Shown: positions 61,360 to 64,000 of the stretch, piece after piece
How the letters are laid out: each line of letters starts with the position of its first letter
How positions within the stretch are numbered: the stretch's first letter is position 1
Assembly (NCBI GenBank): GCA_022565695.1
Contig: JAIUME010000004.1
Location: 186,001 to 250,000 of the forward strand
DNA: 64,000 bases
DNA from: Alcanivorax sp.
GTDB lineage: Bacteria > Pseudomonadota > Gammaproteobacteria > Pseudomonadales > Alcanivoracaceae
Direction: 5' to 3'
Made by a program: the position numbers and the translations under genes
Notes under the pieces: model-generated
The model's database searches: none
What the model was told of the DNA's origin: nothing
Seen by the model: the letters and a program-made list of their open reading frames with translations, nothing else

Positions 61360-61390
61360 AACGCCTCGGCAACCATGCCGGGGCGTTTTT
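61360..61390 (+). terminator. Rho-independent terminator of tRNA-Lys
   Basis: ACGCC-T-CGGCA, loop ACCA, TGCCG-G-GGCGT (61361-61386) with one T-G pair, then T5. Confidence 0.92.
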
Positions 61391-61446
61391 GTTTGCCTCC
61401 CTTCTTGCTTGCTGCCTCCCTTGCCCTTCACAACCTGATCACACCC

Positions 61447-61470
61447 TGTACAAGTAATATTGGCTGTACA
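61447..61470 (+). promoter_or_regulatory. TGTACA-N12-TGTACA operator candidate upstream of the light/photorepair operon
   Basis: TGTACA (61447-61452) and TGTACA (61465-61470) are separated by exactly 12 bp. The spacer contains a -10-like TAATAT (61455-61460). From memory, a T(G/A)TACA-N12-TGTA(C/T)A motif is described for class II LitR (PplR) targets in Pseudomonas putida. The MerR gene two positions downstream would be the cognate regulator. The ribosome-binding site ggaagg and GTG 61502 follow. Confidence 0.65.
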
Positions 61471-61501
61471 GCTTTTGTGAAGATCAAATGGAAGGTGGTG
61501 T

Positions 61502-62548
61502 GTGGCCAGATCCCGCAGGACAGACAGCGACGTATCTCAGGCGGGGCAGGCCCCGGCGCGGATACCCGTGGGCATCAGCGCCTGTCTGACCGGGCAGGCG
61601 GTGCGTCATGACGGCGGTCACAAGCACTCCCGATACTGCACCGAGGTGTTGTCGCGCTGGTTTGCCCTGCGCCCGCTGTGCCCCGAGGCAGGGGCGGGGC
61701 TTGGGACGCCGCGGGCGGCCATACGTCTGGAGCAATCCGGCGCAAGCCAGAGCGGTGGCAGCGCCGAAGCTCACCTGTCAGAGCCCGCACGGCTGCCCGT
61801 AAGACTGATAGCACCACGGGATCGCAGTGACCATACCAATGCGTTGCATCACTGGATTGACGGTCAGGACGACCTGCTGGCGGGCCTGCGCGGCTTCATT
61901 CTCACAGCCAAGTCTCCCAGTTGCGGTATGGCGCGCATTCGGGTGTACAACCCGGCGGGGCAGGTGTTGCGCCGCGACGCCAGTGGTCTGTTCGCCCATG
62001 CCCTGATGACCCGCTATCCGCTGATGCCAGTGGAAGAAGCGGCACGTCTCAACGACGCTGGCCTGCGGGAAAATTTCATCGAGCGGGTCTTTGTCTATGA
62101 CGACTGGTGCCAGCTGTCCGCCCGGGGGATCAGTCGCGCCGGTTTGCTGGCGTTCCACACCCGGCACAAGTTACAGCTCCTGGCGCACTGCCAGCAGGGT
62201 TACCGCGAGCTGGGGCGTCTGTTGTCGGATCTGCGCGTTGAAGACATCCACGTCCTGGCAGCCGAGTACATCGCCCGTGTCATGCACGTCATGGCACAGC
62301 CCGCGTCTCGGGGCGCCCATGTCAACGTCATGCAACATATGCTCGGGTACTTCCGTGGCCGTCTTGATGCGGGGCTGCGCGAGGAAGTGCAGGCGCAGAT
62401 CCAGGCGTATCAACGGGAAGAAGTGCCTCTTGTGGTGCCGCTGACATTGCTGCGCCTGATGCAGCGCAGGGCGCCGGATGCCTGGCTTGCAGGCCAGCAT
62501 TACCTGGCGCCGTATCCCGATGCCCTGGGCCTGAGGAATCAGCTGTGA
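61502..62548 (+). CDS. rudS: TudS (DUF523)-DUF1722 fusion, RudS-type tRNA 4-thiouridine desulfidase
   Basis: The 348-aa fusion has an N-terminal DUF523/TudS domain (about 20-165). Its three likely [4Fe-4S] cysteines are C28 (GISACLTGQAVRHDGG), C60 (RPLCPEAGAGLGTPR) and C141 (AKSPSCGMARIRVY). The C-terminal DUF1722/YbgA domain (about 190-335) has LLAFHTRHKLQLLAHCQQGY and RGAHVNVMQHMLGYFRGRLD. TudS desulfurates thiouracil, and the DUF1722 fusion (RudS) has been reported to remove sulfur from s4U in tRNA. An Ala/Ser/Gly-rich insert lies at about 76-95. GTG 61502 is the start. Its stop overlaps the merR start (GTGA). Confidence 0.88.
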   Translation: MARSRRTDSDVSQAGQAPARIPVGISACLTGQAVRHDGGHKHSRYCTEVLSRWFALRPLCPEAGAGLGTPRAAIRLEQSGASQSGGSAEAHLSEPARLPVRLIAPRDRSDHTNALHHWIDGQDDLLAGLRGFILTAKSPSCGMARIRVYNPAGQVLRRDASGLFAHALMTRYPLMPVEEAARLNDAGLRENFIERVFVYDDWCQLSARGISRAGLLAFHTRHKLQLLAHCQQGYRELGRLLSDLRVEDIHVLAAEYIARVMHVMAQPASRGAHVNVMQHMLGYFRGRLDAGLREEVQAQIQAYQREEVPLVVPLTLLRLMQRRAPDAWLAGQHYLAPYPDALGLRNQL

Positions 62549-63519
62549 CCCCCGCCACAGACGAGTTGCTGCCAATCAGTGTGGTGGGCGCGCTGACCGG
62601 CGTGAACCCGGTGACGTTGCGCGCCTGGGAGCGTCGTTATGGTCTGCTGCTGCCGCACCGGACTGCCAAAGGCTACCGCCTCTATAGTGGTACGGATGTG
62701 GCCAGGGTGCGGGAGATCGTCAGCTGGCTGGAAAAGGGCGTGGCCATCAGTCGGGTCCGCCTGTTGCTGGACAGCGCGGCTGCGGAGGCAGGGCAGGTTG
62801 CCGGCCACGTGGCCCAGGACTGGCAGGCGGCGCTGGATGCCGGCATGGAGGCGGCGCTGGCGCTGGATGTGCGTCGCCTTGAGCAGCAATTCAATCAGCT
62901 GGCCGGTGACTATCCGCTGTCCCAGCTGCTGGCGTGCTGGGTGGATCCCCTGAGCGCACGGCTGCCGGGCGCCAGTGCCTCGGACAGTGCCCGGCCGTTG
63001 CCGGGCGCGGTGACTGCCAGGGTGGTGTTTGAAGGCTTTCTGCAGAACAAGCTTGCGGCGCGCCTGCTGGCCGCTGCCCGACGCCCCGGGCGGGAGCCCC
63101 GTTGGGCGGTGTTGCCTGCGGCAGACGGCGCCGAACGGGAAGCCTTGATGCTTGCCGTATTGTGCGCTGAGGCGGATCTGCCGGTGTTGTTGTTGCCGAC
63201 ACCGCTGCCCGCAGACGAACTGAGTCTGCTCGGCAGCCGCGCTGATGTCGCCGGAGTGTTGCTGGTGTTGCCGCCCGGGCTCTCCACCACCTTGCTTGAA
63301 CGGCGCCTGGGTGCGGCGCGCCGTCATCTGACGGACAGATTGTTTGCCTGCGGTGACGGGTTGCTCACCCTGTCGCGCATACCCTCTGGCGTCCTGCCGC
63401 TGACCGGCCCGCGGCAGCAGATCATCAATAGCCTCAGTGCCATGTCGACAAGTGCCAAGTCCACAAGTGCCATGGCCACCAAGGCAGCTAACCGACAAGA
63501 CAGCAAGGAGCAGGCATGA
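62545..63519 (+). CDS. MerR-family regulator, class II LitR/PplR-like
   Basis: This 324-aa protein has an N-terminal MerR winged helix (LLPISVVGALTGVNPVTLRA, WERRYGLLLPHRTAKGYRLY, SGTDVARVREIVSWLEKG). A helical middle region (about 85-150) and an alpha/beta C-terminal domain (about 160-300) similar in layout to cobalamin-binding CarH/LitR follow. I see neither the Wx9EH motif nor the cobalt-ligand His of true B12 photoreceptors. It overlaps rudS (GTGA) and phr (ATGA), so the three are coupled. It probably represses its own operon and is relieved by light, directly or via a LOV partner elsewhere. The tail carries three 15-bp repeats. Confidence 0.82.
   Translation: MTPATDELLPISVVGALTGVNPVTLRAWERRYGLLLPHRTAKGYRLYSGTDVARVREIVSWLEKGVAISRVRLLLDSAAAEAGQVAGHVAQDWQAALDAGMEAALALDVRRLEQQFNQLAGDYPLSQLLACWVDPLSARLPGASASDSARPLPGAVTARVVFEGFLQNKLAARLLAAARRPGREPRWAVLPAADGAEREALMLAVLCAEADLPVLLLPTPLPADELSLLGSRADVAGVLLVLPPGLSTTLLERRLGAARRHLTDRLFACGDGLLTLSRIPSGVLPLTGPRQQIINSLSAMSTSAKSTSAMATKAANRQDSKEQA
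63436..63480 (+). repeat. Three degenerate 15-bp in-frame repeats at the merR 3' end
   Basis: AGTGCCATGTCGACA (63436-63450), AGTGCCAAGTCCACA (63451-63465) and AGTGCCATGGCCACC (63466-63480) encode SAMST, SAKST, SAMAT. Confidence 0.88.
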
Positions 63520-64000
63520 CCGCCCTGGTGTGGTATCGCAACGACCTTCGCGCCCGCGACCATCAGGGCCTGAGCGCTGCCCTGGGCAGCGGGCAACCGG
63601 TGCGTGCCGTGTATCTGTTGAGCCCCGGCCAATGGGACCGGCATCAGGTTGCGCCGATACGGCGCTGGTATGTGCTGTCCTCCCTGCGCGAGCTTGGCGA
63701 GACCCTGGGCAAGCTGGGCATACCGCTGGATATTGTGCCCTGCGAGACGTTTGACGAGGCGCCTGAGGTGCTGGCGACCTATTGCCGCAGTCATCAGATC
63801 AAGGCGTTGTATTGCACCCGTGAATACCCGCTCAACGAGCTGCGCCGCGACCGCGCTGTGGCCGACGCTTTGCGCCCGCTGGGCGTCACGTTGCAGGGGT
63901 ATGACGACGCTGTGGTGGTGCCACCCCGGGCACTGAAAACAGGGCAGGGTACGCCCTATACCGTATTTACGCCGTATCGCCGCCGCTGGGATGCGTGCCT
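63516..64000 (+). CDS. phrB: Deoxyribodipyrimidine photolyase (partial, cut by right edge)
   Basis: The first 161 codons of a class I CPD photolyase are present: MTALVWYRNDLRARDHQGLS, LRELGETLGKLGIPLDIVPC, IKALYCTREYPLNELRRDRA and TPYTVFTPYRRRW. This is the N-terminal photolyase homology domain that holds the antenna chromophore; the FAD-binding half lies outside the window. ATG 63516 overlaps the merR stop by ATGA and follows aaggag. Photolyase repairs UV pyrimidine dimers with blue light. Confidence 0.93.
   Translation, partial: MTALVWYRNDLRARDHQGLSAALGSGQPVRAVYLLSPGQWDRHQVAPIRRWYVLSSLRELGETLGKLGIPLDIVPCETFDEAPEVLATYCRSHQIKALYCTREYPLNELRRDRAVADALRPLGVTLQGYDDAVVVPPRALKTGQGTPYTVFTPYRRRWDAC

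Follow-up and report, generated by a model that had tools for sequence, protein, structure and literature searches.

The operon studied here lies at the end of a 64,000-nucleotide stretch of Alcanivorax sp. DNA (the window, which belongs to contig C4; the genome measures 3.5 Mb and is 99.9% complete) and joins rudS, encoding a predicted tRNA 4-thiouridine (s4U) desulfidase, to the gene of a LitR/CarH-type MerR regulator and to phrB, encoding a DNA photolyase. The operon is real and conserved, its co-regulation is almost certain, and it is likely to be the form taken in Alcanivorax-type bacteria by the class II LitR operon that serves photoprotection in Pseudomonas (PplR1/PmlR1 type), with s4U drawn from a substitute for ThiI. 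Gene content, overlaps, operator, active-site residues, predicted fold, the lack of ThiI over the cut-off and co-occurrence were all computed, and from them we infer the light response, the repression and the s4U chemistry in this organism. A near-ultraviolet (near-UV) coupling of tRNA de-thiolation and photorepair, put forward for this DNA in the original prediction, is plausible; a 2024 paper on RudS proposes a light-induced, s4U-erasing role for it and names a PhrB-LitR-RudS operon in Pseudomonas (PMC11417400), so the idea was already in print. The accompanying 'switch' between growth arrest and repair is one that we would infer. New here is that ThiI was not found and that, judged from sequence, another enzyme appears to make the tRNA mark. 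The part worth following is this ThiI substitute, together with the missing light sensor.

Layout and conservation of the operon

61447-61470, no strand: class II LitR operator TGTACA-N12-TGTACA, an exact match to the footprinted PmlR2 sites and the PplR1 consensus (PMC9758184)
61502-62548, forward strand: rudS, TudS-DUF1722 fusion (Pfam PF04463 and PF08349), predicted tRNA 4-thiouridine desulfidase, 348 residues
62545-63519, forward strand: LitR/CarH-type MerR regulator, class II-like (MerR_1 and predicted fold), 324 residues
63516-64000, forward strand, open at the window end: phrB, DNA photolyase (Pfam DNA_photolyase), N-terminal 161 codons
61279-61353, forward strand: tRNA-Lys (anticodon TTT; ARAGORN), upstream neighbour outside the operon
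61380-61399 (L002:1881-1900): terminator-like element after tRNA-Lys

The GTGA and ATGA overlaps claimed in the original prediction were seen at 62545-62548 and 63516-63519, and its three genes (TudS-DUF1722, LitR-like MerR and phrB) were borne out by open reading frames and Pfam. One frame matched both 2-thiour_desulf (5e-31) and DUF1722 (8.6e-35); the other matches were to MerR_1 (1.8e-14) and DNA_photolyase (8.8e-40). Shared expression, also claimed, is well supported by the overlaps and by an exact class II LitR operator of a kind that tracked LitR in 110 loci. Beyond the window, the full phrB encodes 490 residues (L002:4017-5489; FAD_binding_7, 1e-79). Next on that strand come genes for a flavin adenine dinucleotide (FAD)/amine-oxidase-type oxidoreductase, DUF1365 and CMAS (cyclopropane synthase-like); nadA lies after these. 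The last same-strand gene of the operon ended at L002:8822, which is window position 68321, and an operon of six genes running beyond the window end is probable. The original prediction had included neither these further genes nor the operator.

Shared with the PmlR1/PplR1 operon of P. mendocina and P. putida (PMC9758184) are the regulator, phrB, the FAD oxidoreductase and a gene in the UfaM/CMAS position, as well as reading frames that overlap or lie close together and a TGTACA-N12-TGTACA site ahead of the first gene. The Alcanivorax operon differs in having six genes instead of nine, with no short-chain dehydrogenase found among the six, and one operator instead of two.

The segment to which the original prediction referred begins at 61447, the first base of TGTACAAGTAATATTGGCTGTACA. 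The sites of PmlR2 footprinted with DNase I have the form TGTACA-N12-TGTACA and the consensus of PplR1 is T(G/A)TACA-N12-TGTA(C/T)A (PMC9758184); as in class II LitR operons, this consensus stands before the first gene, with an exact match at 61447-61470. The perfect site occurred once in the genome and the degenerate consensus matched once in the window. When up to two mismatches were allowed, the genome gave 81 matches against 80 for the reversed pattern, so only the perfect site is meaningful. Among loci, the 12-base spacers varied and the half-sites were kept. No consensus sigma-70 promoter was detected over the operator; the region gave about as many promoter-like sequences as chance would (2 vs 1.9). 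Palindromes of the form TATACAT...ATGTATA, recurring in family genomes (e.g. G001, G002, G003 and G041), also fit the degenerate operator pattern and look like a different site.

Conservation was followed in the best 80 of the 110 RudS loci found among named records, mostly with flanks of 9 kb on each side (less near contig ends; about 5 kb in total for L052 and L076), and in the 30 best-scoring further loci of the taxonomic order, with flanks of about 1.5 kb. The operator was scored strictly in the 80 named-record loci and by the degenerate consensus in the 30 order-wide loci. The closest named RudS relative among the matches listed, from an Alcanivorax metagenome-assembled genome, was 69% identical. 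RudS was followed directly by LitR in 14 of the 80 named-record loci. A strict operator was present in all 14, its first base lying 34-88 bases ahead of the RudS match; none of the 66 loci without LitR had it. The order RudS-LitR-PhrB was present in 13 of the 80, and the fourteenth, L031, stops after LitR at a contig end, a recurrence that is not due to chance. Twelve of the 14 LitR loci kept the full order RudS-LitR-PhrB-FAD oxidoreductase-DUF1365-CMAS and L030 kept the first three genes only. A natural variant was found in L020 (L020:1332-6944), where RudS-PhrB-FAD oxidoreductase-DUF1365-CMAS is kept and both LitR and the operator are gone.

In the order-wide sample LitR was present in 11 of the 30 loci, all 11 with an operator, and no operator was found in the 19 loci without LitR. 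When both samples were pooled (110 loci), the operator accompanied LitR in 25/25 loci and occurred in 0/85 without it (Fisher p 3e-25, uncorrected for relatedness). Eight of the 11 order-wide LitR loci had the order RudS-LitR-PhrB; in L105 PhrB precedes RudS, and L104 and L108 showed no PhrB in their short flanks.

The co-occurrence of DUF523-DUF1722, LitR-like MerR and phr that the original prediction had proposed to survey is therefore recurrent, at 13/80 and at 8/11 of the order-wide LitR loci, but it is not general: 65 of the 80 RudS loci, mostly from Marinobacter, lacked every other operon gene in the flanks covered, so the tie of RudS to light control is not universal. These loci, and the 9 of the 30 order-wide loci with neither LitR nor PhrB, would fit the view that the genes overlap through the usual tight packing of operons and that tRNA desulfidation and photorepair are not functionally coupled. 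That view is improbable, as PhrB still adjoined RudS at 10 of the 30 order-wide loci where LitR was absent (10 of the 19 that lack LitR), from six families of the order, and the order RudS-LitR-PhrB was kept in the eight loci mentioned at identities of 29-43%. In one Marinobacter locus (L077:8992-11711), RudS was seen beside DUF481 and UPF0176/rhodanese genes, with no LitR, PhrB or operator.

The regulator and its possible light input

By its modelled structure and its sequence, the regulator is a class II-like LitR with a predicted CarH fold and no cobalamin-ligand motif; it is called class II-like because the fold is kept by prediction though B12-binding_2 was not recognised. AlphaFold2, run on 14 aligned homologues, predicted elements read here as a helix-turn-helix (HTH), a bundle of four helices (82-178) and a domain of Rossmann type, with a mean predicted local distance difference test score of 85.7 and a predicted template modelling score of 0.74. 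All 50 PDB matches listed for this model (of 58 at E<=0.001) were CarH or LitR. Against full-length CarH, E-values went down to 1.7e-11 and template modelling (TM) scores by query length were 0.44-0.49 with large root-mean-square deviations, as a different rotation of the domains would lead one to expect; against separate cobalamin-binding-domain entries, TM scores by target length were 0.67-0.75. The predicted arrangement of MerR HTH, four-helix bundle and Rossmann domain is shared with the class I CarH/LitR of Thermus thermophilus, but [DE]xHxxG, the cobalamin-ligand motif, was found in none of the 14 homologues, which sets them apart from class I. B12-binding_2 (PF02607) was matched in Pfam by none of the 14 at E<=1, unlike in the Pseudomonas PmlRs, and MlrA_helical was matched by 12 of the 14, the window regulator not among them. 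All 11 operator-linked LitRs of the order-wide sample matched B12-binding_2 and likewise had no [DE]xHxxG; the window regulator aligned with them over 256 profile columns (E 9e-47).

Class II LitRs of Pseudomonas respond to blue light via short LOV (light-oxygen-voltage) proteins, and the corresponding nine-gene operon is induced by blue light (PMC9758184); by this homology, the Alcanivorax operon may be light-switched as well. It differs from the PmlR1/PplR1 system in that the whole genome encodes one LitR-type protein and in that neither a LOV motif nor a B12-binding_2 match was found. An exact NCRFLQ motif was absent from the genome, and near-matches numbered 34, compared with 27 when the motif was reversed as a control; this was a motif scan only, with no LOV profile searched, and a LOV protein could be too divergent for it. 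The 206 loci examined likewise yielded no LOV motif. A second LitR was considered and rejected, the only candidate being a MerR protein that is short and matches at 38% over 81 residues; its flanking frames resemble IhfA and PheT. BLUF was also considered as a light partner. One BLUF protein is encoded in the genome (L097:1022-2031, on C18), in a frame overlapping a DUF3429 frame. Within the family sample of 46 genomes, BLUF was found in 9 and a match to the operator consensus in 41, some of these matching via the TATACAT...ATGTATA palindromes (G041 only so); BLUF is accordingly not a general partner.

These results bear on whether the operon answers light itself. It might instead answer photo-oxidative stress or another signal, with the regulator sensing a metabolite or redox state in a degenerate cobalamin-type pocket and with photolyase and RudS as part of a general stress set. 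The absence of a LOV motif from the genome and of the cobalamin-ligand motif from the regulator, and the failure of BLUF to track the operator in the family, are consistent with this. In V. cholerae, too, a MerR-like regulator encoded with phr is placed downstream of reactive oxygen species in the authors' model (PMC5241685). That predicted operon (VCA0056-VCA0058, encoding a MerR-like protein, phr and a hypothetical protein) shares MerR-like and phr genes with the one described here and is up-regulated by blue light; RudS is not mentioned in the portion of PMC5241685 that deals with it. A stress signal in place of light is nevertheless rather unlikely, since Pseudomonas regulators that answer blue light via LOV proteins have the identical operator (PMC9758184), and a divergent LOV protein could have escaped the motif scan.

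RudS and the source of 4-thiouridine

The rudS frame encodes TudS fused to DUF1722, with PF04463 and PF08349 over their cut-offs, and retains the cluster cysteines and catalytic residues. In an alignment of 81 sequences, C28, R35, C60, E62, R71, S138 and C141 were invariant and S140 was kept in 79 (Thr in two). Matched by motif and not by alignment, C28, C60, C141, E62, S138, S140 and R71 correspond to Cys17, Cys49, Cys114, Glu51, Ser111, Ser113 and Arg60 of RudS_KT, the RudS of P. putida KT2440 (PP_0741; PMC11417400). Both proteins share the TudS-DUF1722 fusion, the cluster cysteines, the catalytic residues and a spacing of 32 between the first and second cysteines. They differ in the spacing between the second and third (81 here, 65 in RudS_KT) and in the pair His36-Asp37 (His-Asp in 81/81 relatives), which is Tyr25-Asn26 in RudS_KT (PMC11417400); a further difference is that the Alcanivorax genome has no ThiI over the cut-off. 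Expression of RudS lowers s4U in tRNA, and its overexpression in E. coli shortens the growth delay after ultraviolet A from ~105 to ~60 minutes (PMC11417400). Compared with PDB sequences, the Alcanivorax protein gave a weak match to TudS 6z92, and on the strength of its sequence it may carry out s4U chemistry in this organism.

ThiI is the usual maker of s4U. With the curated cut-off of TIGR00342, by which ThiI was called here and across the order, none was found in the genome of the window (best E 5.3e-4), and in the 46 family genomes (this one and 45 relatives) no PF02568 match rose above 35.9 bits and no real ThiI was found. The two weak PF02568 matches of the genome were MnmA and a 377-residue protein that comprises a PP-loop-type region and NFACT-R_2 (PF18297, 5e-31) and gave no THUMP match; among PDB sequences it matched MnmA only. 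Its gene lies at C1:684501-685634 (L015:1429-2562, L134:2185-3318), and a TusA gene follows 47 bp downstream (L134:3365-3601). For groups of genomes with RudS but without an E. coli-type ThiI, ThiI homologues of other architecture, or the absence of s4U, have been suggested (PMC11417400).

Among 293 genomes of the order, ThiI was present in 167 and NFACT-R_2 in 41, and no genome had both (expected 23, p 1e-17). DUF1722 was found in 185 of the 293: in 153 of the 167 with ThiI, in 25 of the 41 with NFACT-R_2 and in 7 of the 85 that have neither gene, the latter two groups differing at p 6e-10. DUF1722 matches alone do not prove a RudS fusion; the DUF1722 places listed, which are not all of them, have open frames of 228-420 residues. 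One genome with a sub-cut-off ThiI match (G178, 1.5e-24) was classed as ThiI-less. Six DUF1722 matches in ThiI-less genomes were weaker than 1e-20 (G061, G073, G106 and G120 with NFACT-R_2, G134 and G151 with neither synthase), and without these the counts were 21/41 and 5/85. When only genomes with a completeness of at least 95% were counted, DUF1722 accompanied NFACT-R_2 in 22/35 and neither synthase in 2/63. Relatedness was handled in this table solely via a count per genus, which among ThiI-less genomes gave 14/22 vs 5/38 (p 1e-4). Conversely, 25 of the 32 ThiI-less genomes with DUF1722 had the NFACT-R_2 gene. The association is incomplete on both sides: 16 of the 41 NFACT-R_2 genomes lacked DUF1722, and the 7 of 85 mentioned above have DUF1722 with neither synthase.

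Five cysteines were invariant in the 35 NFACT-R_2 loci examined (of 41). A TusA-like frame, chosen via its motif, overlapped the gene or lay within 150 bp downstream in 30 of the 35; it was not found so in L140, L142, L164 and L165, and lay 2.5 kb off in L144. Pfam, run on two of these frames, confirmed TusA in both. In three loci of one genus (L130, L132 and L133), rudS was seen to adjoin thiI, eraser beside writer.

These sequence comparisons make it probable that the s4U erased by RudS comes from a substitute for ThiI, namely a PP-loop-NFACT-R_2 sulfurase supplied by TusA. The contrary view is unlikely; it holds that without ThiI there is no s4U here and that RudS has some other thiolated base or nucleotide as its substrate, or has simply been carried along with an inherited operon. 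It is in keeping with the lack of any ThiI-family match above 35.9 bits in the family, with the presence of MnmA, which accounts for 2-thiouridine at position 34, and with the DUF1722 genomes that have neither synthase. Against it stand the conserved active-site residues of RudS, the action of RudS proteins on tRNA s4U (PMC11417400) and the tendency of ThiI-less genomes, including those of at least 95% completeness, to have DUF1722 where they have the NFACT-R_2 gene.

A 4-thiouridylation pathway with NFACT-R and TusA was reportedly predicted by Burroughs and Aravind (2014). The idea of a ThiI substitute is thus not new; independent support for it comes from the distribution shared with RudS, from the exclusion of ThiI and from the TusA count. 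A limited literature search gave no paper joining two of 4-thiouridylation, NFACT and TusA, and no mention of NFACT among the matches listed.

Proposed mechanism and its meaning

In the dark, a LitR-type repressor on TGTACA-N12-TGTACA before rudS would keep the operon down, to judge from the exact operator. Light would relieve the repression, and the six genes for RudS, LitR, photolyase, FAD oxidoreductase, DUF1365 and the CMAS-type protein (UfaM-like by position) would then be made together. Photolyase would repair pyrimidine dimers. RudS would strip the sulfur from s4U at position 8 of tRNA (s4U8), so that near-UV would no longer crosslink the tRNA and stall translation. The products of the last three genes probably modify membrane lipids against photo-oxidation. 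The s4U itself would probably come from the PP-loop-NFACT-R_2 sulfurase fed by TusA and encoded elsewhere in the genome.

Several of the observations given above count against this mechanism: the 65 RudS loci without partners, the lack of a promoter consensus over the operator, the lack of B12-binding_2 in the regulator and of a LOV motif in the genome, the restricted occurrence of BLUF and the incomplete association of DUF1722 with the two synthases. More tentatively, and with less than even confidence, a wider picture can be drawn. In the family and in members of at least 10 other families of the order, a THUMP-less, five-cysteine (probably iron-sulfur) PP-loop-NFACT-R_2 sulfurase with TusA, and not ThiI, may write s4U8, which light-controlled RudS may erase, so that two writers would share one eraser; the regulator would answer light with neither LOV nor cobalamin, via a sensor not yet described.

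With a RudS-LitR-photolyase unit seen beyond Pseudomonas, its operator preserved, the published hypothesis on near-UV becomes a simple prediction that concerns marine bacteria of the Alcanivorax type. The more useful result bears on a gap left by the RudS paper, namely genomes with RudS but without ThiI, the NFACT-R_2 gene being present in 25 of the 32 ThiI-less genomes with DUF1722 sampled in the order. Never found with ThiI in one genome and usually adjoined by TusA, the NFACT-R_2 gene is a concrete candidate for a second bacterial s4U synthase.

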